Shown here: positions 8,943 to 28,746 of the stretch, in pieces
How positions within the stretch are numbered: the first letter of the stretch is position 1
Layout: each line of letters opens with the position of its first letter
NCBI RefSeq assembly: GCF_003318165.1
Contig: NZ_QOCB01000029.1
Span: 1-54,293 of the forward strand
Direction: 5' to 3'
DNA length: 54,293 nt
From: Psychromonas sp. B3M02
GTDB taxonomy: Bacteria; Pseudomonadota; Gammaproteobacteria; Enterobacterales; Psychromonadaceae
Notes under the pieces: generated by a model
Databases searched by the model: none
What the model was told of the DNA's origin: nothing
Seen by the model: only the letters and a program-made list of their open reading frames with translations
Translations under genes and position numbers: made by a program

Positions 8943-8975
8943 AGTAGCTAGATTGTTACTAATAAATATAAACTT

Positions 8976-9004
8976 AAGAAGCATACTTAAATGTATGCTT
9001 CTTT
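8976..9004. terminator. terminator after tctA
   Basis: AAGAAGCATAC (8976-8986) and GTATGCTTCTT (8993-9003) form a perfect 11-bp stem with a 6-base loop, ending in TTCTTT. It separates the transporter operon from the two-component genes. Confidence 0.85.
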
Positions 9005-9151
9005 ATTAATTTCAGTAATTTATTTGAGGGTACTCCTAAAAACAGACAAAGCATGATTGCTTATATAGATTTTTAAATTAACATGATTTTTTCAATTTAC
9101 TAACAAACAATACACTTGCCACTTGCACAACGATTAGGTCCTATAACAAAC

Positions 9152-10756
9152 ATGCCTTTCTCATTATCAAAATTGACCTTTCGCACTAAAATATTCCTGT
9201 TGTTATTTGGATTAGTGATTTTACAGATGTCTGTGATGGTGTGGCATTTTGAAACAACATTGTATAAATCAATTAAACACCAAGTTGGGACGCGCGCTCT
9301 GATACAAGCCAAAGAGATCTCCAGTGATCCCGCATTAATCAAACAAATTCAAAGCAATGACCTAACTGCATTACAAAAAAATATTGCCCGTTTAGCGACA
9401 ATATCTGATGCGAGCTTTATTGTGATTGGTGATAAAAATGGTATTCGACTCGCCCACCCAGTTGAAGACCGAATTGGCTTACCTATGACTGGTGGCGACA
9501 ATGCAGGAGTACTAGAAGATGGTGAATCTTATATCAGCCTGAGAAAAGGCAGTTTAGGCTATGGTGTCAGAGGGAAGTCACCTATTTTTGATCAGAACCA
9601 AAATATTATCGGTGTTGTTTCTGTTGGTTATTTATTAAATCGATTCGATCAATGGATTGAGGTGTATATGACGCCATTATTGATTGAAATTCTCAGTGTT
9701 CTAGTATTAACGTTATTAGCTGCATGGGGGTTCTCACGCCATATCCAGAAAAAAATGAATAACATGGAGCCTGAAGCCATAACCCTAGCGTTAAATTTAC
9801 AGAAATCTATTTTAAGCTCTGTATACGAGGGAGTAATTGCTATTGACCTCAAAGGCAACTTTCTAACTATTAACCATTCTGCCCGTCAATTGCTTAACAT
9901 AGAGCATGATATCACCTACTTAAAAACCAGAAATATCATTGAATACATTTCAAACACAGAGTTCTTTTTCCGACATCCATTAGTTGAAAATATCAAAGAT
10001 GAAATGCTTCTTTTTAATGAACATTATTTTATTGCTAATCGCGTTGCTATTTTTAAACAAAAAGAATTGATTGGCTGGGTTATCAGTTTTAGGGAAAAAA
10101 GTGATATTGACGCACTAACTAACGAGCTTAGCCAAGTTCAGCAACACACAGATACTTTACGTGTCTTACGCCATGAGTTCTCGAATCGACTAGCGACAAT
10201 TTCTGGTCTGATTCAACTACAACGATTTGATGAAGTTCAACAACTCATTACTACTGAAAATACCAATAAACAAAAACTACTGGATTTTATTCATCAGAAA
10301 ATACATTTACCTCAAGTTGCCGGTTTATTATTGGGTAAGTCTTTGAGGGCAAAAGAGTTAAACATCTCATTAATTTTTGATCCTACTTGTCAACTATCTG
10401 TACTTCACTCAAAGTTAAGTGAGGCTGAACTGTGTGCAATTATTGGTAATTTAATAGATAACGCCTTTGATGCCACTCAACAGAGCTTTGATATTCAATC
10501 CGTCGTTAACATATTAATAACGGATGCAGGAAGTGATTTGGTTATTGAAGTGACCGATAACGGCCCAGGAATCGCTGTTGATTTAATCGATGATATTTGG
10601 AAAAAAGGCGTCACTATCAAGCAGGATAATCATAGCCATGGCATTGGTTTATATTTAGTACATCGTTATGTCACACATGCAAATGGTTTTATCAATGTCG
10701 ATAATGCCGAACCACAGGGCTGTATTTTCTCTGTGTTTATCCCTAATAAATGTTAA
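9152..10756 (+). CDS. CitA/DcuS-family sensor histidine kinase
   Basis: This membrane sensor kinase senses carboxylates in the DpiB/CitA/DcuS manner. Domains in order: a first membrane segment (about residues 12-32), a periplasmic ligand-binding domain (about 33-170, with SDASFIVIGDKNGIRLAHP, typical of citrate/fumarate sensors), a second membrane segment (about 175-198), a cytoplasmic PAS domain (about 220-330), and the kinase core. The phospho-accepting histidine is H341 in RHEFSNRL. The ATP-binding boxes are NLIDNAFDAT, DNGPGI and GIGLYLV. The frame extends upstream to a TTG at 9116, but the ATG at 9152 gives a normal N-terminus and is my choice. It lies after tctCBA and 10 bases before the regulator gene. 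Confidence 0.9.
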   Translation: MPFSLSKLTFRTKIFLLLFGLVILQMSVMVWHFETTLYKSIKHQVGTRALIQAKEISSDPALIKQIQSNDLTALQKNIARLATISDASFIVIGDKNGIRLAHPVEDRIGLPMTGGDNAGVLEDGESYISLRKGSLGYGVRGKSPIFDQNQNIIGVVSVGYLLNRFDQWIEVYMTPLLIEILSVLVLTLLAAWGFSRHIQKKMNNMEPEAITLALNLQKSILSSVYEGVIAIDLKGNFLTINHSARQLLNIEHDITYLKTRNIIEYISNTEFFFRHPLVENIKDEMLLFNEHYFIANRVAIFKQKELIGWVISFREKSDIDALTNELSQVQQHTDTLRVLRHEFSNRLATISGLIQLQRFDEVQQLITTENTNKQKLLDFIHQKIHLPQVAGLLLGKSLRAKELNISLIFDPTCQLSVLHSKLSEAELCAIIGNLIDNAFDATQQSFDIQSVVNILITDAGSDLVIEVTDNGPGIAVDLIDDIWKKGVTIKQDNHSHGIGLYLVHRYVTHANGFINVDNAEPQGCIFSVFIPNKC

Positions 10757-10766
10757 AGGTAGATGT

Positions 10767-11468
10767 ATGGATCTCATTGATGTATTAATTGTTGAAGATG
10801 ATGCAAAGATTGCACAAACGCACAGTGAAATTTTACGCCAAACTGCGCGTTTCAATCCTATTGGTATTGCGGAAACGCTGCAAATGGCACGCACTATGAT
10901 TAAAATTCACAAACCAAATGTCATTATCTTGGATAACTATTTACCCGATGGTACTGGTATTGACCTGTTTCGTGAACTCATTGCAGATAAATCAATGCAC
11001 AAAACCAATGTGGTATTAGTTACTGCTTCCGATGAAATTGAGACAATTAAAACAGCGATGAAATTAGGTTGTTTTGATTACTTACTCAAACCTGTTTCCT
11101 ATGAACGTTTACAAGAAACGCTTAATCGATTTTTAGCCTTAAATACAGCAATGAAAGCATACGATAACTTGGAACAACGCCAAATTGATGAGCTATTTAA
11201 TATGCAGCTACGATATAAACAGCAGCAATCTTTACCTAAAGGTATTGAAAGCATTACTTTAGAAACGATCAAACGCGTGTTTTCCCAGAATATTGGCATA
11301 CGTTTTACTGTTGAAAAATTAGTGTTAGAAACTGGAATGAGTAAAACCACTGCTCGACGCTATTTAGAGTATTGTTCAGCAAATGGTTTGTTAACCGCAG
11401 AAAATGAGTACGGAAAAGTGGGGAGGCCAGAGCGCGTTTATGTCAAAAACGCTGACAATATCCAATAA
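10767..11468 (+). CDS. CitB/DcuR-family response regulator
   Basis: This 233-residue response regulator has an N-terminal receiver domain with acidic pocket E10/D11/D12, phospho-acceptor D56 (in VIILDNYLPDGTG), the conserved Thr in LVTASDE and Lys in LLKPVS. The C-terminal part has a helix-turn-helix ending in FTVEKLVLETGMSKTTARRY and then GRPERVYV, which identifies the CitB/DcuR/DctR group. AAAGGTAG precedes the ATG at 10767; longer in-frame starts would overlap the kinase gene and are unlikely. Its target is probably the tctCBA operon upstream, perhaps through the inverted repeat at 5573-5635; that is inference. Confidence 0.9.
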   Translation: MDLIDVLIVEDDAKIAQTHSEILRQTARFNPIGIAETLQMARTMIKIHKPNVIILDNYLPDGTGIDLFRELIADKSMHKTNVVLVTASDEIETIKTAMKLGCFDYLLKPVSYERLQETLNRFLALNTAMKAYDNLEQRQIDELFNMQLRYKQQQSLPKGIESITLETIKRVFSQNIGIRFTVEKLVLETGMSKTTARRYLEYCSANGLLTAENEYGKVGRPERVYVKNADNIQ

Positions 11469-11645
11469 TGACACTCAACACCTGTGTTTATTTTATAAGT
11501 GGCCTGTTTCATAATTAACAACAAGGGAGGTACTTTCTATTAAACAATAACTGTATTGTTTTCAATACATAAGCTAAAACACTCGCCTTTTTGTACTGAC
11601 ACGTTACAATTATTTCTTTTTAAATAACCAACAAAGAGAAAACTA

Positions 11646-11996
11646 ATGATTGAACGTCAACAAACTAAACAACGTATGAGCCGTGTAGTAAAACATAACG
11701 GTACAATCTACTTATGTGGTCAAGTATGTGCTGATGCAACTAAAGAGATCAAAGAACAAACACAAACTATGTTAGATAAAGTAGATCAGTTACTAATCGA
11801 ATCTGGTAGTTCACGTGAGCATATCTTATCTGCAACTGTCTACGTTAAAGATATGGCATTACACTTTGCTGGTATGAATGAAGTTTGGGATGCTTGGGTA
11901 CCTGAAGGTCACGCCCCTGCTCGTGCATGTGTAGAAGCAAGCATGGCACGTGAAGCTTTATTAGTAGAGATTTCAGTGATCGCTGCTGTTAAATAA
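11646..11996 (+). CDS. RidA/YjgF family protein
   Basis: This is a 116-residue member of the Rid family (trimeric enamine/imine deaminase fold). Visible features are [20 protein letters not shown] at the N-terminus, the segment [19 protein letters not shown], and R93 in [14 protein letters not shown], at the position of the family's substrate-contacting arginine. RidA itself hydrolyses reactive 2-aminoacrylate released by PLP enzymes. The N-terminus and the [13 protein letters not shown] segment look more like the YoaB subgroup, so the exact substrate is open. It is followed 21 bases later by selO on the same strand. Confidence 0.85.
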
Positions 11997-12017
11997 AAGT
12001 AACAATTAGAGGTATTC

Positions 12018-13643
12018 ATGAGTACTGTATTACCAAGCGCACATCCGACTTTTGTTTCACAATTGCCAGCGGATCCTGACGCTAGTAATCGCTGCCGTAC
12101 AGTTGAACACGCAGCTTACTCATGGGTAACTCCTTGCGCGACCAAAGCCACACAGATTATTTGTTGTAATCACAATTTGGCAGCGCAATTAGGCTTTAAT
12201 GAACAAGCCACTCAATCACAAGAATTTGCAGACTTAGTCTCAGGTAACCTTCACGATCCAAGTATTAAACCCTATGCGATGAATTATGGTGGTCATCAAT
12301 TTGGCCAATGGGCTGGGCAGCTAGGGGATGGTCGAGCGATTAACCTTGGTCAATATCAATTGCTTGATAGCCAACAACAAGTCACCTTACAATTAAAAGG
12401 AGCAGGTAAAACCCCCTACTCTCGTCGTGGTGATGGCATGGCCGTATTACGCTCTTCAATACGTGAATACTTATGCTCCGAAGCTATGTATCACTTGGGC
12501 ATACCAACCACCCGTGCGTTGACCTTAACTCTAACAGGTGAACAAGTCATACGCGATAAACTATACGATGGTCATGCCGCTTACGAACCTTGTGCCATTG
12601 TTGCTAGAGTGTCTCCCTCCTTCCTACGCTTTGGTTCTTTGCAGTTACCCGGTTCAAGGGGAGATCTAGATACCTTAAAACAAACCTTAGATTACTGTAT
12701 TAAACATGACTATGCTTCATTAATTCCTGAGTCTGGCATTATCGATAAAGCGGTTTACTTAGCCTGGTTTGAAAGTCTTTGTGAACGTACTGCTCAATTA
12801 ATTGTTGAATGGATGCGTGTTGGGTTTGTACATGGCGTGTTAAACACTGACAATATGTCATTAATTGGCGAAACCATCGACTATGGCCCTTATGGTTGGA
12901 TTGATAACTTCGATTTAGATTGGACACCGAATACATCAGATGCAGGTGAAAAACGTTATCGTTTTGGGCAGCAAGCCTACATTGGCCAATGGAATCTGTT
13001 TCAACTAGCCAATACCATTTACCCACTGATTAATGAAGCTGAGCCACTGCAAGCAATCTTTAATAATTACAATCATTTATACAATGAAAAATGGTTAAAG
13101 ATGATGCGTGAAAAATTGGGTATTGCTCAACATACCGATCTTAATGAGAGCACTTTAACAGAGTCAGATAAACAGCTTTGTACCGACCTAGAGACTGTAC
13201 TATCTACTATCAATACTGATATGACACTGTTTTATCGTTGTCTTGCTGACTATCCAACGAGCGCTTGCCCACAAAATTCGCAACAATTACAAGCGCATTT
13301 TGCTATCTGCTTTTATAATCAACAAGAGGTAACTGAAGATTATTTACAACAATTATCTAAATGGCTAATTAGTTACCAACAAAGGTTAAAATTAACAGAT
13401 CAAGATGATCAACAACGTAAAATACAAATGGATGCTATTAATCCTTGTTATATTTTACGTAACTTCCAAGTGCAGGAAGCGATAGAGCTAGCAGAACACG
13501 GTGATTATTCAAGAGTATTAACCCTTGCTGAACTATTAAAGACACCTTATCAACAGCAAGATAAGTATCAGCAGTTTGAAATGAAACGCCCAGACTGGGC
13601 CACCAACAAATTTGGCTGTTCAGCTTTATCCTGTAGCTCATAA
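12018..13643 (+). CDS. selO: SelO family protein adenylyltransferase (YdiU)
   Basis: This is a pseudokinase-fold enzyme that transfers AMP from ATP to serine, threonine or tyrosine of other proteins; in E. coli it acts on redox-linked targets. The 541 residues are longer than E. coli YdiU (478). Family signatures are MNYGGHQFGQWAGQLGDGRA, LKGAGKTPYSRRGDGMAVLR, and VHGVLNTDNMSLIGETIDYG followed by PYGWIDNFD, which includes the catalytic and metal-binding residues. The C-terminus is SALSCSS. The penultimate Cys corresponds to the selenocysteine of eukaryotic SelO and to the redox Cys of bacterial ones. It may be co-transcribed with the RidA-family gene. Confidence 0.93.
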   Translation: MSTVLPSAHPTFVSQLPADPDASNRCRTVEHAAYSWVTPCATKATQIICCNHNLAAQLGFNEQATQSQEFADLVSGNLHDPSIKPYAMNYGGHQFGQWAGQLGDGRAINLGQYQLLDSQQQVTLQLKGAGKTPYSRRGDGMAVLRSSIREYLCSEAMYHLGIPTTRALTLTLTGEQVIRDKLYDGHAAYEPCAIVARVSPSFLRFGSLQLPGSRGDLDTLKQTLDYCIKHDYASLIPESGIIDKAVYLAWFESLCERTAQLIVEWMRVGFVHGVLNTDNMSLIGETIDYGPYGWIDNFDLDWTPNTSDAGEKRYRFGQQAYIGQWNLFQLANTIYPLINEAEPLQAIFNNYNHLYNEKWLKMMREKLGIAQHTDLNESTLTESDKQLCTDLETVLSTINTDMTLFYRCLADYPTSACPQNSQQLQAHFAICFYNQQEVTEDYLQQLSKWLISYQQRLKLTDQDDQQRKIQMDAINPCYILRNFQVQEAIELAEHGDYSRVLTLAELLKTPYQQQDKYQQFEMKRPDWATNKFGCSALSCSS

Positions 13644-13747
13644 AACAATGATATTATTAAGTTAATCTTGCTTTTTTGAGATACATCTGAGATAAAGGTA
13701 ATAGGTTTTTTTGATGTAAATTGATATGTATATTTTAATGGAGTGTT

Positions 13748-15436
13748 ATGGTTCAGGACAAACTAAGCATGCAACATATCTTACTATCCGATGATAGTAA
13801 TGTTCTATTATTAAAAGTCAGCCCTCTCGATACAGACATTACTGTAGAAGAAATCCTTACTCTATTAAAAAGCCCCTCTTTACCGCAATTTAAAATCAAT
13901 ATTGATGGCATCAATCAAGCCATTGATGCATTTAACATGCTTGCCGATGGTCAGCTCGACTCTAAAGTGTTGATTGACCCAATTGTGATCGCTGAGAAAC
14001 AAGATGCGCAATTAAATATTACTATTTCCGAAGACAAAATGGATGCCTGCGCCAGTATTACTACGGCTTATGGTGGTCAAAGTATTACCTTTGATATGAT
14101 TAAAGCTAAATGCCAAGAGTTAGGATTAAAGTACGGACTAGTCCCGAAGAATGTGCTGGGCTTACTGAATGCTTGTAAACATGCTAAATCAGGTGAAACC
14201 CTTAAAATTACAATTGCACATGGTCTCGCACCTATTCACGGTGTTGATGCTTCCTTTGTTAAACTAGTCAATACCGAAACTCATCGTAAACCAGCACCGA
14301 AATTATTAGCGAACGGTAAAGTTGATATGCGTGACCTTGGACAGTCAATCACTGTTAAAGCTGGCACCGTATTAATGAAAAAAATACCTAAACAAACTGG
14401 TACACCAGGCAAAACAGTGACCGCTGAATTAATTCCCCAAATAGAGGGTAAAGATAGCGAGTTTGTCATTCATAAAAATGTACAAATTGATCCTAAAAAT
14501 CCACTGCAACTGATTGCTAAAAATTATGGTATTCCCATTGAACAAGATGGCTTTATTAAAGTTGATGACGTGATGTTGTTAGAGCAAGTCAGTAATAAAA
14601 GTGGTCATGTCGAATACGACGGTACTGTGGTCATTAGTGGCGATATTCATGACAATATGAAAGTTAAAGCGAGCGGTGATATTACTGTGATGGGCGTCAT
14701 TGAATCTGCTCAAGTTATTTGCGGTGGTGACCTGACGGTAGAAATGCCTATTATCGGTCATTTAAATAAAGAAGATGATACTTACACGTGTGAAATCATC
14801 TGTGATGGCAATTTAATTGGCACTATTGCGCAATATGCCAACCTTACTATCGGAAAAGACTTAACGCTTAGTAGTCAGTTAATACATTGCCGTACCGAAT
14901 GTTTAGGTAAAATAGAGGTTCACAATTCCAGTTATACCCAAGGTGCAATTATTGGTGGAGTTACATCCTGCCACAAAGGTATTACGTCGGTCAGTATAGG
15001 GACATCTGGCAATACCAAAACTGAGTTTCACCTGCAAGGTGATATCGAAAAGCTGAAAAAGGAAAAATTAAAACATATTAAAGAGATTCAGACTCTCGAT
15101 AAAATGATCAATAAGTTTAAACTTGCTGAAACTAAGGCTGATGCAATCACCAATATCGAGATACGTAGAGAAAAAAGATTAGCGCTAGCCAAAGAAAAAC
15201 AGATTTGTAGAGCACATAGTGACCTTGCCCAAGCGAGATTAAAGAATATTAAAGCCAAATTAAGAACTGCATATGAGAGCTTATATTTAATAGCAGTAAA
15301 AACAATACACAGTGAAACCCAGGTCTATTCAGCAGGCCAAGAATGGTGTAGTCATTGTGAATTGGGAGCAAGTAAAGTGTCTATGCAAAATAATTTATTA
15401 AACGTAGCCGAATTGAAAGAGTTAGTGCATAACTAA
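13748..15436 (+). CDS. DUF342/FapA-like protein
   Basis: This 562-residue protein belongs to the DUF342 (FapA, flagellar assembly protein A) family. The core from about residue 155 to 430 contains the family's VKAGTVLMKKIPKQTGTPGK motif and a series of short repeats (VVISGDIHDNMKVKASGDIT and following) that form a right-handed beta-helix. A charged coiled coil follows at about residues 425-520. In Vibrio, FapA influences polar flagellation, but no flagellar gene is nearby, so the role here is unproven. The N-terminal 100 residues are less conserved. It appears monocistronic, with GGAGTG just before the ATG. Confidence 0.8.
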   Translation: MVQDKLSMQHILLSDDSNVLLLKVSPLDTDITVEEILTLLKSPSLPQFKINIDGINQAIDAFNMLADGQLDSKVLIDPIVIAEKQDAQLNITISEDKMDACASITTAYGGQSITFDMIKAKCQELGLKYGLVPKNVLGLLNACKHAKSGETLKITIAHGLAPIHGVDASFVKLVNTETHRKPAPKLLANGKVDMRDLGQSITVKAGTVLMKKIPKQTGTPGKTVTAELIPQIEGKDSEFVIHKNVQIDPKNPLQLIAKNYGIPIEQDGFIKVDDVMLLEQVSNKSGHVEYDGTVVISGDIHDNMKVKASGDITVMGVIESAQVICGGDLTVEMPIIGHLNKEDDTYTCEIICDGNLIGTIAQYANLTIGKDLTLSSQLIHCRTECLGKIEVHNSSYTQGAIIGGVTSCHKGITSVSIGTSGNTKTEFHLQGDIEKLKKEKLKHIKEIQTLDKMINKFKLAETKADAITNIEIRREKRLALAKEKQICRAHSDLAQARLKNIKAKLRTAYESLYLIAVKTIHSETQVYSAGQEWCSHCELGASKVSMQNNLLNVAELKELVHN

Positions 15437-22279: not shown

Positions 22280-23167
22280 TTAATTTAATTTAGATACCGA
22301 CAAAGTTAATGCCTTTGCCAGCATATGCTCTTGTTTGATAGTTTTTCTTTGTGCTGACATTAAGCTGTACAGCTGTAATATTTTTAATGAATCCGATTGA
22401 TACTTAGCAATATAGGTTCTTGCACTATCTTGCTTAAAGTAATCAATATCTGCACCGGTGGCGTGAAAGGTTTTAATGCTCTCTACAGTCGGGGCAATAA
22501 AATACTCAGCACCACTGGTTAACGTAATTTCTATGCCTTTAGGATCAAAGTCTGCAAAACACACCAACTGATGGGAATCTTTAAAACGCCTGAAAAACTG
22601 ATAAGCCATACTGGTGGTTTGTTGTGCTTTAATATCGCCACGGTATAACCACAGTGCATTTTTTAAAAAGTCATGCTCAGGGGAAAAATTCAATGAGGCT
22701 AAATTAGCCATCACACTTAAATTCTCTACCAATACAATACAGCGATGTTCAATACTAGTTACACTGTTTGCATCTAGATATAGCCCAAGTGATTGAAGCT
22801 CACTAAGTAGAATGTTTGTATGGTTAATCTGCAAGGTATTGAGACTATTGACCAACACAAAATCATGACTTACCGCTAAAGTATGAGGCTTCTCATCATT
22901 AAAAGTATTAGCTCGTGTTACCCGCGCAGTCTTTTCAGGATACGCATCGTATAAGAGATCAACATGAAGCTGTGATTTCACCAAATCAATAATGTCTCGC
23001 CTGTCTTGTTCAGTGTAAACCCACTCTCCGTATGCAATTTTTCCTAACCGATGCTGTGCAACAATCCACTCACAGGATTTATTCTTTTTAACGCGATTGA
23101 TAGCCTGACTTAATTGTTTTGCAAAAAATTGATACTGGGTTTTATTAATAATATAACCGGGCATCAT
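22280..23167 (-). CDS. Toprim protein of an SMC operon (JetD/MksG-like)
   Basis: This is a 295-residue protein with a C-terminal Toprim-type nuclease domain. The catalytic pattern is visible as E148 in IVLVENLS, and D206-F-D208 in CFADFDPKGIEI, followed near the end by KQEHML (residues 278-283), matching the EQE-type motif of JetD/DUF2220 proteins. The N-terminal 130 residues probably form a DNA- or partner-binding arm. In Wadjet and MksBEFG systems this protein cuts plasmid DNA captured by the SMC complex. Its start codon overlaps the stop of the kleisin-like gene (TAATG), so the two are translationally coupled. Sequence identity to known JetD appears low, but the active-site residues are intact. 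Confidence 0.75.
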   Translation of the reverse strand: MMPGYIINKTQYQFFAKQLSQAINRVKKNKSCEWIVAQHRLGKIAYGEWVYTEQDRRDIIDLVKSQLHVDLLYDAYPEKTARVTRANTFNDEKPHTLAVSHDFVLVNSLNTLQINHTNILLSELQSLGLYLDANSVTSIEHRCIVLVENLSVMANLASLNFSPEHDFLKNALWLYRGDIKAQQTTSMAYQFFRRFKDSHQLVCFADFDPKGIEITLTSGAEYFIAPTVESIKTFHATGADIDYFKQDSARTYIAKYQSDSLKILQLYSLMSAQRKTIKQEHMLAKALTLSVSKLN

Positions 23168-24408
23168 TAATTCACTTTAACTACAATGTCACTGTAAGAC
23201 CAGTTATGAGAAATACCTTCAAGCTGCTTACCTTTTGGTTTGATATCAATTAGTGCCTGTTGTGCATTGGTTAATTTACAATAACTGCTAAACACTAATT
23301 CAACCCAGGCAATAGGTTCAATATGCTGCTGTAATTGATGCCAATTGACTAATGATTGCTGCCAATAAGCAACAGCAGAGACGGCTTCACCTGTGGTAAT
23401 TGCTTTTTCAAATAGGCGCTCTGTTTGCTCTTCAAAGTAATCATAACTAAAGCCCATCGCCACGTTTTCAATCACCTCTACTGATGACGTTTCACGAGCA
23501 TTAGGTTTAGTCGGATTATTAAGTTTACGTAATGACTGCACTATTCCCACTAATGCATGCTCATGTGCGGTTTCTTTAACATTAATATAAGACTTAATTG
23601 GCATCGCAGGTGCAAAACGTAAGGTTTCAGGCAAGCTTTTATCTTCGAATACATTTTCGTTAATTTCAAACTCAGGATGTTTTTGAAGGTAACGTGCCAT
23701 ATTACGTAACAGACTAGCTTGTTTCTCATCGCGTCTTAATTTAAATAAGCTTAAACGCATACTATCAATGATAAAGCGCAACCGTGGCAAGGTTTGATTA
23801 AACCAATAGATAAAACCACTAATCTTACGCGCCAGCTCAACAGGGCAAGCCCAATCCATCCATTCGTAACAGGTTTCAGGATCGATCTGTTGTAATTCAG
23901 TTAATAACTTTTGTGCATAGGTTAATGCACGTTCATTTTCACGCACTTTTGCACTGATCGTAGTAACGAACCCGAACTGACTTGAGATGGCATAATGCAT
24001 ATTATCTAGACTAACGTTTAGGTTATCTTTTGCTTCATAGAGAAGATCATCTAATTGATCTAAATAATATTCTGCATCATCCTGTTGATCGCTAATCACT
24101 GATAAACGATAGTCGTTCACTGTATCAGCTAACACATCAATCACTTTACCCATGTCCGTGAGCTGTCGGTAACTACTTTGCTTACGCATTAAACGGTTTA
24201 ACATGCGCTTAAGCTCAGCACTAACACGATAATCACCAGGTTCGTCATCAGGTCTTAATAGCGACTTTTTATGCAGTGCCGCTATCTTTCTGGCTTCATC
24301 ACCATCACCCTGCACCGAACCAAACACATAAGCCTCTGCTAACAGTTGGTCATGCGCTCCAAGCTGGCGTAAAAGTTCTGCAACATCTTTAGTATCGTAA
24401 CCTGCCAT
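23167..24408 (-). CDS. kleisin-like subunit of an SMC operon (MukF/JetA/MksF-like)
   Basis: This 413-residue protein is largely helical. Its early part (about residues 40-75, LLRPDDEPGDYRVSAELKRM) looks like a winged helix. A long helical region follows (about residues 95-185, with ISAKVRENERALTYAQKLLT). The C-terminal part is mixed. The size, the layout and the position between an SMC gene and a Toprim gene identify it as the kleisin that bridges the SMC heads. No single motif is diagnostic, so the call rests on architecture and neighbours. It overlaps both neighbours by TAATG junctions. Confidence 0.65.
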   Translation of the reverse strand: MAGYDTKDVAELLRQLGAHDQLLAEAYVFGSVQGDGDEARKIAALHKKSLLRPDDEPGDYRVSAELKRMLNRLMRKQSSYRQLTDMGKVIDVLADTVNDYRLSVISDQQDDAEYYLDQLDDLLYEAKDNLNVSLDNMHYAISSQFGFVTTISAKVRENERALTYAQKLLTELQQIDPETCYEWMDWACPVELARKISGFIYWFNQTLPRLRFIIDSMRLSLFKLRRDEKQASLLRNMARYLQKHPEFEINENVFEDKSLPETLRFAPAMPIKSYINVKETAHEHALVGIVQSLRKLNNPTKPNARETSSVEVIENVAMGFSYDYFEEQTERLFEKAITTGEAVSAVAYWQQSLVNWHQLQQHIEPIAWVELVFSSYCKLTNAQQALIDIKPKGKQLEGISHNWSYSDIVVKVN

Positions 24409-25031
24409 TAGAACAATAACTCTTCTTGTTGTTGCTCTACTGTTTCTGGAAGCTCAATACGTTCTGAATCATTTAAGAACTCAATTAACAGATAGATAAG
24501 ATCAAACTTAGCCGTTGCAAAATAACGGCTACTGCCGGCATTTTTACGCACAAAATAGCCCAGTTCTTCTAATTTATGAAATACAAAAACCAATTGCTCA
24601 CGGCTTTCTAATTTATTAGTTTTAAAGGGTCTGATTGCGGTTAAATGGCGTAATTGTTCACGTAAGGTTTGGTCATGTTCAAATGGGTCAAACAGTTCAT
24701 TAATATTGATAATCGACTTCGCATGGATAGGTAAGTCTGTTTGACTCGCTGTAAGAATTAACTCTAAGAACTCAACAAGTGGACGGAACATACCGCGAAT
24801 ATCGGTAAATAAAGCGGTTAATTCCGGTGTATTGTCACTGTCCACTTCATTAAAGGTGCAGTAGTAAGCATCTGCACTGTCTAAATAGGTTAATTGACGA
24901 TCTAAGTTGCTGAGGAAATCACTGACACGATCTTGGTTATCTTGGGCTTGTAGAAATAAGAACTCATCTGCAAAGCCTGTTTCACAAATCACTTCACCGG
25001 TTAAAAGTTTTTGAACGGTTTGCTTAAACAT
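24408..25031 (-). CDS. small winged-helix subunit of an SMC operon (MukE/JetB/MksE-like)
   Basis: This acidic 207-residue protein has a C-terminal winged-helix segment (about residues 145-195: LVFVFHKLEELGYFVRKNAG, then SSRYFATAKFDLIYLLIEFL). The size and this segment fit the MukE/KITE-type subunit that binds the kleisin and DNA. Its start overlaps the end of the SMC gene by 8 bases, and its stop overlaps the start of the kleisin-like gene. The assignment is from context and fold pattern, with no diagnostic motif. Confidence 0.65.
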   Translation of the reverse strand: MFKQTVQKLLTGEVICETGFADEFLFLQAQDNQDRVSDFLSNLDRQLTYLDSADAYYCTFNEVDSDNTPELTALFTDIRGMFRPLVEFLELILTASQTDLPIHAKSIININELFDPFEHDQTLREQLRHLTAIRPFKTNKLESREQLVFVFHKLEELGYFVRKNAGSSRYFATAKFDLIYLLIEFLNDSERIELPETVEQQQEELLF

Positions 25032-28000
25032 CTTGGCTCTCCAATTCAGTTGTTTGTGTCTGACTCGCTTGTTCTGCCACTTGTTTGCGCTGCATTAATA
25101 GCTCATCTAATCGTGATGTTGGGATATGTGCATGGAATATTTTGTTATCTTTAATCTTATAATGACGCTCATAGAGTGACAAGATATGGCGATCTGTAGA
25201 AGGCGAAGCAGATAACATAGTAATTGCATTGTCGTTAAACATAGTTAATAACAGGTCGATATTTTCGGCGGCTAATTCACCTAACTCATCTACCGGTAAT
25301 ATGATTTGGGTTTGCACATCACTTTCTCCACGTAACATGCCTAAAATCCCCGCATATAAAGACAACATGGCGAGGTATGACAGCCCTGTTGAACTGATTT
25401 TTTTCAGCTGTCTCGCATTACGTGCGTGTTTTAACTGCCCTTTTTCAGAGATAGTAAACTCGATATCAAACAGTTGATGGTGAGCTAGTGCAAACCCTTC
25501 ACTTGGTAGATAAGCAGAAAGTTTTTGCATTGCAACAATCAAGTCGTCAGGAATATCACCGACACCTTCACGTAAATCATCACGGTATTTATCAAATAAC
25601 TTAGCAAATTGCTGTAATGGTCCCCAGTAATCTAGCTCTTCCTGTTTCATTACTGTATTAACGTTAATATCAGCAAGTGCTTCAAAGTGCGCTAGTTTAG
25701 TGACGTTATTAGACAGTTGTTTACCGATACTTTTAATGCGACGCGCGAAGTGTTCAATATGTTGATAGAACTCATTGATCATATTGGCGTTGACCGTCAC
25801 CAACTGATAGGTATTCTTTTGTTTCTGTGCGGCACTACTGAGTAAGTCTGCAATCGGGTTTTGGTATTTAAACAAGCTTCTCGCGCCCTTATAAATATCA
25901 TTATCCGCCACTAACTTAACCCAGTTTTCATAGAGTTCACTATTTGCATTATTTTTTGCAAAGGCCGTATTAAACTGAGTTATTTGCGATTGTAGACGTT
26001 TATCAATGGTTTTGAATTGTTTGACCCAATCACCACAGAAAGTTACAGTTAACTCTGGGTTATTGCTTGGCTCTGACTCTGCAGCGATAGGTTCAATGCC
26101 ATACTGTTCACACTCACGTTGAGCCAAACTTAATTGCAGTAAAAGATCCGCATCATCATTGAGTTGCTGCGAAACTTTTTTAAGTAGTTTTTGTTTCTCA
26201 GTAATTAAACCAGTTTTTTCAATGGTTAAATCAGATAAGCTATTTTCTAAACCGCGTTTTTGTACTTCTCTATTTTGATTCTGCTCAACTAACTGATCGC
26301 GATTAATATAACGCTTATTCATGAAGTCTTCATATTCACGCGCTTTACGCGCCCAAACGGCACACTCTTCAAGCTGCTTTGTTAATTCAGCACGTTGTTT
26401 AATACGTTTATCAACTTCACCATCAGGGTCTAATTTGTCTAAGGCTTGGTCACGCTGCTGTTTGTAGTCTTTCTGACGTGTTTTAGCACTTTCTTGAATA
26501 GCAGCAAACTGCTCAGCAAGTTGATCAAGTTGACTGTCACGGTCTGACTCAACGACCATACGTTGATCTAACATTTGATTATTCAGCTCAAAACGTTGCG
26601 CTTGTTGAAGCTCTTTAAACTCAGCCAGTTTACTTTGTTGTTGTTTGATTTTAGTGGTTAACTTTTTAATATCACCTTCAAAGGTTGCTGCAGCTTGCTT
26701 CAAGAAGTGTTGCTTTTTAATCACCAAATTATCTTGTTGGGTTTTAAACTGCTGACGTTGTAGTTCTATTTTTTGTAAGGCTTGTTTACGCTCACTGATC
26801 AACAGTGTTTGTTGTTCAATTTGTTTATTTAGATCGTTTAACTGTGTTGTTAATTGTTGTTCTTTATCACTAAGTGACGCTATTTTATCATCTATTGTGG
26901 TGATTTTTTCACGCAGTTCATTTTCATTAAGCTGTAGGTCGTTATCTTGCAACTGGTCTAAATCAATTTGTAAGCCAAATAAACTCAACTTATCAGCGGG
27001 CTCTGTGACCCATTGAGGGTTAAGATCTTTTCGTGCTAATTGCTCGGCAGATAAAACTCGGCCGATGTTATCTTTCCAACCTTGTGCTTCATTCTCATGA
27101 CTTAAAAAGTGATGTAATGAATTCACCTCTGGTAACAATTGTAAATGTAACTGTTGACGTGATTTTTTGTAATCGTCCAACTGACGGTTATTTTTAGTAT
27201 GTTGGTCTAGGACTGACGTTCGCTGTTTTTCTAACGTATTGAGCTGCTGATTATCACTACTTAATACTTGTAATAGATCACTCAAACGATCTTTCACTTC
27301 AGACATATTAACTTGATTACTATCAATTTCAGCTTGTAAAGCAGGGTCAACAGTGATGTTTTGTTGTGCAGTCTCAGCCATCTTCAAGTCATTTTGTAAT
27401 AACTGCAGATCCATGTTCAATTTTAAAAAGCTGTCGTTTAACTGCTCATTCAATTTTGCTAACTGGCCTTGATAGGTTTCAGAAATAACCGATAGTTGAG
27501 TATTCGCTTGCTCTTTTACTTTAGCAACTTGCTCATGATTACGCGCTTCATCTTTGACCTTTTGTAAGGTAAGCGTCTGTAATAAGGATTCAAACTTTGC
27601 TTGTACTTTGTTTAAGTTACCTTCAAAGGCTTCAATGATCTCATTTACATCGTTCAACGCCTGTTGATAACGAGGTGCGTTATCTGCTTGTAATTGAAAA
27701 CTAGCCGCGTCATTTTCATCAAACTTAAGTTTATCTTCATCTAACAGATCAATACGGCCTTGGTCAGCTTCAATTTTCACCAACAATTTACTGATGTCGG
27801 TTTGCAGTGTTTGTGTTTGCTCTTTTAACTGTTTATCCAATTGCGTGATTTGCTCACGTAATTGAGTTTTCTGTTGGCTGCGCTCCGTTTGCTTGGTATT
27901 AATGCTTTCTTGATGCGCTAACATTTCAACATGTAAGTGCTGTAATTTAATTAGTAAGTTATCTAACTGAGTAAAATCTGTTTGCCACAGCGCAATTTTA

Positions 28001-28746
28001 TCGCTCACTTTTTGAATTGAACGACTGGCTTGAATATCCGCTAACCATAAGCTGATATCTTGTTTGTTGAGTGTTATCTGCTCTTTCTCTTGGCCAACAC
28101 TACGTGCAATATGGTCACCAGCAATCGCCACCAGCATCTGTTTAACAGCATCAAAGTCGAGGTTCTTTTCGATGGTACCATTAACCACTTTATCTAAATG
28201 TGGCGTGGCTAAATCACTAAATGCAAAGCGATTTTGTAATTGACGGATCTCTTTAACTTTACGACCAATACGCAGGTTTTGAATCACTTGACGAAATTTA
28301 TCAACACCTAAATAGACAGAGCATTCCACACCCAGCGAACGATATACTCGCTCAACTTCAGCAACGGTTAAGGGTATTTTATTTTCACCGATAAAAATCT
28401 GGCTATCAAAACCACTATCAATAAATTTAAACTGCACACCTCGGCCATCTGAACTGGCTAGTGCCATACAAGTTTGACCACCTGGACGCTGATATTCATA
28501 TACCAGCATGCTCGAATCTCTTGGTAAATAATAATCAGCAAAATTTTTGGCTTGATCCACTTTACTGACAATATCACTCGGGCGCATACCATAGAAAAGT
28601 GGTAGTAGACGCATTAAAGAAGTTTTACCTGCACCATTTGTCCCTTCTAATTGGGTATGACCAGATAGGTCTAGTTCATTCACTTGTCCCTTCCAAAAGC
28701 TATCGATAATAATAATGCGTAACAATTGATAAGCTTGTTCTGCCAT
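25024..28746 (-). CDS. MukB/JetC/MksB-like SMC ATPase
   Basis: This 1240-residue condensin-type ATPase starts with a nucleotide-binding head whose Walker A is G35-TNGAGKTS. Long glutamine-rich coiled coils (about residues 230-560 and 590-950) flank a central hinge. The C-terminal head has an ABC signature of the MukB kind, SSTGLSYLAM (about residues 1118-1127), and Walker B IILPVDELGEL with D1153/E1154. All ATPase residues are present. The short MukB-like head, without the LSGGE signature of canonical Smc, places it in the MukB/MksB/JetC group. It is the first gene of the four-gene operon; the usual order in JetABCD and MukFEB has the SMC gene third. Confidence 0.88.
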   Translation of the reverse strand: MAEQAYQLLRIIIIDSFWKGQVNELDLSGHTQLEGTNGAGKTSLMRLLPLFYGMRPSDIVSKVDQAKNFADYYLPRDSSMLVYEYQRPGGQTCMALASSDGRGVQFKFIDSGFDSQIFIGENKIPLTVAEVERVYRSLGVECSVYLGVDKFRQVIQNLRIGRKVKEIRQLQNRFAFSDLATPHLDKVVNGTIEKNLDFDAVKQMLVAIAGDHIARSVGQEKEQITLNKQDISLWLADIQASRSIQKVSDKIALWQTDFTQLDNLLIKLQHLHVEMLAHQESINTKQTERSQQKTQLREQITQLDKQLKEQTQTLQTDISKLLVKIEADQGRIDLLDEDKLKFDENDAASFQLQADNAPRYQQALNDVNEIIEAFEGNLNKVQAKFESLLQTLTLQKVKDEARNHEQVAKVKEQANTQLSVISETYQGQLAKLNEQLNDSFLKLNMDLQLLQNDLKMAETAQQNITVDPALQAEIDSNQVNMSEVKDRLSDLLQVLSSDNQQLNTLEKQRTSVLDQHTKNNRQLDDYKKSRQQLHLQLLPEVNSLHHFLSHENEAQGWKDNIGRVLSAEQLARKDLNPQWVTEPADKLSLFGLQIDLDQLQDNDLQLNENELREKITTIDDKIASLSDKEQQLTTQLNDLNKQIEQQTLLISERKQALQKIELQRQQFKTQQDNLVIKKQHFLKQAAATFEGDIKKLTTKIKQQQSKLAEFKELQQAQRFELNNQMLDQRMVVESDRDSQLDQLAEQFAAIQESAKTRQKDYKQQRDQALDKLDPDGEVDKRIKQRAELTKQLEECAVWARKAREYEDFMNKRYINRDQLVEQNQNREVQKRGLENSLSDLTIEKTGLITEKQKLLKKVSQQLNDDADLLLQLSLAQRECEQYGIEPIAAESEPSNNPELTVTFCGDWVKQFKTIDKRLQSQITQFNTAFAKNNANSELYENWVKLVADNDIYKGARSLFKYQNPIADLLSSAAQKQKNTYQLVTVNANMINEFYQHIEHFARRIKSIGKQLSNNVTKLAHFEALADINVNTVMKQEELDYWGPLQQFAKLFDKYRDDLREGVGDIPDDLIVAMQKLSAYLPSEGFALAHHQLFDIEFTISEKGQLKHARNARQLKKISSTGLSYLAMLSLYAGILGMLRGESDVQTQIILPVDELGELAAENIDLLLTMFNDNAITMLSASPSTDRHILSLYERHYKIKDNKIFHAHIPTSRLDELLMQRKQVAEQASQTQTTELESQDV

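Follow-up and report, generated by a model that had tools for sequence, protein, structure and literature searches.

Can an SMC complex that carries a nuclease also be the complex that folds a bacterial chromosome? This question is raised by a four-gene operon of Psychromonas sp. B3M02, which lies at 28746-22280 on the minus strand of a 54,293-nucleotide contig (this whole stretch is called the window here; host genome completeness 99.99%) and is therefore transcribed from 28746 towards 22280. We confirmed its four open reading frames (ORFs), which encode an SMC ATPase, a KITE subunit, a kleisin and a Toprim protein. On balance, we slightly favour the reading that the operon makes a Wadjet-like complex turned chromosome condensin, which usually retains a subunit for cutting plasmids as an optional part. 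Both of these functions are proposed by analogy with known SMC systems.

We searched 24 Psychromonas genomes for condensin-type proteins. The operon SMC was above its family cut-off in all 24 genomes, and it is single-copy in the window's own genome. Canonical Smc (TIGR02168) stayed below its cut-off of 567 bits in all 24 (the highest score was 42.7; the window's genome, too, has nothing but sub-threshold matches) and exceeded it in 10 of 14 control genomes. Genuine MukB (PF04310) was not found in any of the 24 Psychromonas; one match of 23.8 bits against a cut-off of 23, covering 55 residues of an ORF of 541 amino acids (aa), was not counted as MukB. ScpB (PF04079) was not found in the three Psychromonas genomes examined, the window's included, and the window genome gave no match to the JetA family DUF3375 or to MksE. 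Among 40 genomes of the order, 19 carried ScpB, 12 carried MukB and nine carried neither (all three Psychromonas and six others, some of them incomplete or tiny). What is new here, at the level of profile searches, is that all 24 Psychromonas carry the operon SMC while Smc and genuine MukB are not found and ScpB is missing from three of three, and this combination suggests that the operon complex is probably the sole condensin of the genus.

We also read by eye the open frames longer than 1000 aa among the sub-threshold Smc matches listed. None of the five was SMC-like: two began like phage tape-measure proteins, one like a response regulator with an EAL end, and two like CheB/CheR hybrids. 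As a separate observation, MukB and ScpB never co-occurred in the 40 genomes of the order, and in G300, G319 (family code f72) and G318, which belong to the same order and are 98-100% complete, both proteins were not found.

The fourth gene of the operon (22280..23167) encodes a 295-aa JetD-like Toprim protein of the Pfam family DUF7281 (162 bits), a family matched by 60 of 60 Toprim members. Kinship with JetD is supported by three comparisons: Pfam JetD_C was matched by 22 of the 60 (best 4e-7), the PADLOC models JetD1, JetD3 and JetD2 were matched by 24, 22 and 10 of the 60, respectively, and hhalign aligned the family with JetD over the catalytic region (50%, E 1.7e-4). Seven of the 60 matched the TOP6A-Spo11 Toprim domain. 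The search of the Toprim profile against solved structures was uninformative, with SPO11 (E 0.14) and MksG (E 0.65) ranking below two chance-like matches. The initial annotation had read Toprim E and D-x-D residues in this protein, and these were borne out, since E148 (codon at 22724..22726) and D206-x-D208 (22544..22552) are invariant in 69 of 69 Toprims, as are K93 and Q279. There was no conserved tyrosine outside the Toprim core in the alignment, which argues against a topoisomerase.

We compared the four proteins among 21 Psychromonas loci in which all four genes are intact. The Toprim ranked last in conservation in all 210 pairs, with a mean identity of 45%, against 68% for the SMC, 79% for the KITE and 72% for the kleisin. 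Similarly, the ratio of nonsynonymous to synonymous substitution rates (dN/dS) was highest for the Toprim in seven of seven close pairs, which were hand-chosen and include one with dS near saturation. It ranged from 0.07 to 0.24 for the Toprim, still below 0.25, compared with 0.02-0.11 for the SMC, 0.005-0.04 for the KITE and 0.01-0.08 for the kleisin. The Toprim protein is, by these measures, fast-evolving but under constraint, with its predicted active site intact.

The Toprim gene is not always present. Among the 24 Psychromonas loci, 22 carried it, in two cases at a distance of about 5 kb with other genes in between, and it was missing from the fetched stretch in the remaining two. In L250, a Psychromonas locus, the flanking genes are as in the window and the Toprim gene alone is gone. 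In two others, L233 and L234, we noted kbl- and tdh-like genes, among others, between the kleisin and Toprim genes. Relatives of the SMC were collected from one genome per species with two SMC peptide patterns, and the best 80 of 437 relatives are referred to as named loci. The Toprim gene was absent from 18 of 77 named loci (the 80 minus L068, L081 and L082, whose contigs end), with no remnant of at least 10 bits in the stretch examined, and from five of the 12 phylum loci L029-L040 (L030 and L033-L036). In a quick tree built from the KITE and kleisin of 94 loci, Toprim presence changes at least 11 times, nine of which are forced by starred branches; gain and loss are indistinguishable in this count, and several branches are long, with deep placements unsure. 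Moreover, 15 of 15 plasmid and phage loci kept the Toprim gene, versus 59 of the 77 named, presumably chromosomal, loci (one-sided Fisher p 0.028, uncorrected for relatedness). The Toprim is an optional, dispensable part of the system.

These observations can be arranged into a mechanism by analogy with Wadjet and MukBEF. The operon would make a complex of the MukBEF/JetABC type, consisting of an SMC dimer, a kleisin and a KITE, which is predicted to load on DNA and to extrude loops by hydrolysing ATP. Its role in Psychromonas would be that of the housekeeping condensin, because Smc-ScpAB and MukBEF were not found there. The JetD-like Toprim nuclease would be carried or recruited by the complex, and the total extrusion model for Wadjet, as given in a review (PMC10586767), holds that small circular DNA is cut once it has been fully reeled in. 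By the same size rule, the nuclease of the operon may cut small circular DNA after full extrusion, and the chromosome would be spared as too large to be fully extruded. More tentatively, and at slightly less than even chances, we propose that Psychromonas, with no Smc-ScpAB or MukBEF, uses this nuclease-bearing, Wadjet-like complex as condensin and plasmid cutter at once, and that repeated loss of the nuclease marks a route from defence to pure condensin that is still under way. The scattered losses would then be this route caught at many stages. According to the same review, no JetABCD system has been documented to extrude loops on the chromosome, and it is unresolved how Wadjet arose and how it relates to other SMC complexes (PMC10586767). 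If our reading is true, a genus with a nuclease-linked SMC as its sole detectable condensin, together with nuclease-less sister strains, lets both questions be tested.

Several points weigh against this proposal. The Smc search scored at most 18 candidates per genome, and sub-threshold Smc matches, mostly coiled coil, occurred in all 24 Psychromonas among the matches listed. ScpB was tested in three Psychromonas genomes only, and JetA and MksE in the window genome only; the MksE negative is weak, since that model fails to detect even the KITE of the window. Of the 24 Psychromonas genomes, three are incomplete (51, 79 and 85%). The operon coexists with ScpB in the relatives G007, G015, G210, G216 and G240, and therefore need not be the condensin there. 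The window Toprim alone gave no JetD match, and a nuclease attached to the sole condensin could endanger the chromosome.

The initial annotation had suggested that the operon possibly belongs to the core genome. This stands as far as the genus is concerned, with the SMC in 24 of 24 Psychromonas, but the family is not solely a quiet core one. We matched the SMC in 35 of 72,556 plasmid records and the KITE in 17, and then retrieved 14 plasmid loci, of which 13 came from the 17 KITE records and one from the SMC list, together with the single phage locus. The four genes, with the Toprim among them, stood in the same order in all 15, although in two loci some genes are broken. In Enterobacter hormaechei, the set of an IncC plasmid (L125, NZ_OR497351.1 132912-153514) lies in a Tn7-like element adjoining CBASS-like genes, and an insertion sequence splits its SMC gene. 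An Acinetobacter plasmid locus has a BREX gene about 8 kb away, and methyltransferase genes lie near some plasmid-borne sets. The 209-kb cyanophage Dolichospermum phage Dfl-JY45, a jumbo phage, carries a complete set at 8968-15323 (L128), all annotated as hypothetical; no SMC relatives were found in viral contigs. With this family, one more system is found to be borne by plasmids, a transposon and a phage; the PADLOC models used do not recognise its members in the window.

Such carriers would suit a function in defence only, that is, a Wadjet-like plasmid restrictor that became fixed in Psychromonas while the chromosome is folded by something else or by nothing. We consider this unlikely. Its neighbours on plasmids (methyltransferase or BREX genes) and in the Tn7-like element (CBASS-like genes) agree with defence, as do the retention of the Toprim in 22 of 24 Psychromonas and its invariant active site; a pure defence system is harder to reconcile with a genus in which both usual condensins were not found, with a three-gene core that persists where the Toprim is lost, with strong constraint on the core genes and less on the supposed effector, and with a synteny common to many Psychromonas. 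Equally improbable, in our judgement, is the converse, in which the complex is a condensin only and the Toprim acts with it on the chromosome, perhaps as a decatenase-like or repair subunit, and is no plasmid nuclease. A topoisomerase would need a conserved tyrosine, and none lies outside the Toprim core; a chromosomal partner is also at odds with the many changes of Toprim presence on the tree and with its occurrence in 15 of 15 mobile-element loci fetched, even though this operon is the only condensin-type SMC found in the genus and seven of 60 Toprims match the TOP6A-Spo11 domain.

The SMC ATPase (25024..28746, 1240 aa) is covered over its whole length by Pfam DUF3584 (PF12128, 1040 bits, residues 12-1200). 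It had been annotated as intact, and we found all three ATPase motifs by motif reading and alignment: Walker A (GTNGAGKTSL, in residues 33-46, LEGTNGAGKTSLMR, 28609..28650), an atypical signature (ISSTGLSYL, not LSGGQ, in residues 1114-1130, LKKISSTGLSYLAMLSL, 25357..25407) and Walker B (PVDELGEL, in residues 1147-1160 with D1153 and E1154, 25267..25308). The corresponding motifs were present in 12 of 12 aligned relatives. In hhalign comparisons, the C-terminal head aligned with MukB (probability 93%), while with JetC the coiled coil alone aligned and the head did not. When heads only were compared, both MukB and JetC aligned weakly, at the P-loop and along a few residues around Walker B, and the SMC is therefore not firmly nearer MukB than JetC. 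Among 13 aligned SMCs, PADLOC JetC1 was weakly matched by 10 (best 3.6e-5) and JetC3 by six (best 3.4e-6), and the LmuB model of Lamassu was matched about equally well, by six of 13 (best 1.3e-6; window SMC 0.007). PADLOC describes its own JetC1 and JetC3 models as 'DUF3584 domain', so that the kinship of DUF3584 with Wadjet was noted earlier by others. The SMC profile against solved structures was uninformative, listing apolipoprotein coils.

The two middle proteins had been annotated as a small winged-helix protein and a kleisin-like protein, and both expected folds were recovered with AlphaFold and Foldseek. As judged from its model, the 207-aa protein (24408..25031) is a KITE of the MukE/MksE/JetB type. 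The model had a predicted local distance difference test score (pLDDT) of 87.6, and Protein Data Bank (PDB) ranks 1-16 in Foldseek were all JetB or MukE chains from JetABC, MukBEF, MukEF and MukE entries, with a JetB entry at rank 1; E was below 0.001 for four of the 16, and template modelling (TM) scores were 0.37-0.49. The window KITE had no Pfam match of its own. Among aligned members, 42 of 68 matched Pfam MksE (best 1e-12) and 16 of 68 the JetB family DUF4194, PADLOC JetB1 was weakly matched by 12 of 68 (best 1.6e-5), and the KITE of relative G007 was above the cut-off in the MksE genome search. By hhalign, the family reached 90% against 13 JetB/MksE sequences, 6.5% against a smaller set of six JetB sequences and 1.7% against MukE.

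The 413-aa protein (23167..24408) is, by its predicted structure, a kleisin of the MukF/JetA type. Its model is of lower quality (pLDDT 78, predicted TM score 0.40), and PDB ranks 1-11 were all MukBEF, MukEF or JetABC entries, the chains being assigned to MukF or JetA by entry title and chain length. E was below 0.001 at rank 1 alone, and TM-scores over the query were low (0.10-0.26), as may occur with flexible multi-domain proteins, and the case therefore rests on the consistency of the ranking. Profile comparisons did not add to it: the few weak matches scattered among the 71 kleisins were to families other than kleisins, none matched JetA with the PADLOC models, hhalign found no match to JetA or MukF, and the search against solved structures was uninformative, listing designed helical proteins.

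The four genes are closely coupled, as had been annotated. The SMC stop and the KITE start share an 8-base overlap (ATGTTTAA, 25024..25031), and the KITE/kleisin and kleisin/Toprim junctions are TAATG each. The annotated order of SMC, small subunit, kleisin and Toprim also held in the survey of relatives, where 78 of the 80 named loci had SMC-KITE-kleisin and the contig of the remaining two ends within the SMC gene; the order is therefore not due to chance. Similarly, DUF3584 was above the cut-off in 13 of 299 phylum genomes, and all 13 (12 and the window) had the same order. Two candidates, L041 and L042, were rejected as relatives, being other ATPases with weak AriA matches. We also noted a locus (L185, G335:C100) in which a 413-aa ORF, an MksE match, a 936-aa ORF with an SMC-like start and a 277-aa ORF stand in a row; it is apparently another divergent MksE-type operon.

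The surroundings of the operon were read by eye, with no family search. The next genes downstream on the same strand resemble those of an FKBP-type isomerase, a glutaredoxin, an AraC regulator and PutA, and the divergent upstream neighbour is an outer-membrane-protein-like gene. No conserved upstream gene was found in close relatives, where the upstream genes vary by clade and look housekeeping-like by eye. No tRNA genes lie within the window. The promoter scan was at chance level (24 found, 25.1 expected), and of the 11 terminator-like sites (5.4 expected) none lies directly after the Toprim gene.

Finally, we asked how the operon stands to described systems. The initial annotation had called it a possible separate branch, which strong placement of all four proteins in a described Wadjet subtype would contradict. 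With PADLOC models no such placement was found: none of the window proteins matched any Jet model, the SMC against JetC included, and some relatives matched JetB, JetC and JetD weakly, but none JetA. As a control, we scored the proteins of two true type I loci, and the best-matching model of each of the eight gave 288 to 1597 bits. To obtain references for types II and III, we searched with a PADLOC JetD2 model and a JetD3 model, 200 genomes per model; these gave weak matches only, in seven and 12 genomes, several of which carry type I by DUF3375, and types II and III were therefore compared solely through PADLOC models. On this profile evidence, membership in Wadjet I-III was rejected, and we class the family as a variant of KITE-type SMC systems outside them. 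That the operon is an ordinary Wadjet of one of the types I to III, with its genes reshuffled, is very improbable. The weak matches in relatives (JetC1 10/13, JetC3 6/13, JetB1 12/68, JetD1 24/60) could be cited for it; against it stand the unmatched window proteins, JetA in 0 of 71 kleisins, the high scores of true type I loci, and the lack of an SMC head-JetC alignment and of JetA kinship in hhalign. In the literature searched, which largely excludes subscription-journal papers and preprints, we found no paper mentioning DUF7281 and five mentioning DUF3584, whose listings show no link to SMC function; among the titles and abstract openings listed for Psychromonas condensin, MksBEF/MukBEF with related genera, and Wadjet subtypes, gene order or type IV, there was no earlier description of the system.

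Among the known systems, Lamassu is defined by LmuB with an LmuA effector and by the lack of a kleisin and a KITE, whereas the operon has both by predicted fold. Smc-ScpAB differs in that the operon's own genome lacks ScpB and has canonical Smc matches below threshold only. MksBEF of Pseudomonas has the order mksF-E-B; the operon family differs from it by losing the nuclease gene in scattered members and usually keeping it in Psychromonas. MukBEF resembles the operon in that the C-terminal SMC head aligns with MukB (weakly when heads only are compared) and not with JetC, the kleisin model is nearest MukF, and the genes have a core role. However, the operon SMC has no match to the MukB N-terminal family PF04310, MukBEF has the order mukF-E-B, mukFEB of E. 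coli lacks a Toprim gene, and hhalign shows no MukE or MukF kinship for the operon proteins. Wadjet (JetABCD/MksBEFG/EptABCD), type I especially, shares the composition of the operon, with four genes for a kleisin, a KITE, a MukB-like SMC and a Toprim nuclease; the KITE and Toprim are detectably related, and the kleisin has, by its model, a MukF/JetA fold. The differences from type I are that the operon SMC and kleisin are unaligned by hhalign and that its Toprim, at 295 aa, is shorter than those of the type I loci retrieved (about 400). In the operon the SMC comes first and the kleisin third, compared with jetA-B-C-D (types II and III being seen via PADLOC models only). Moreover, its Toprim is often absent, and in Psychromonas the set is core and apparently the sole condensin.

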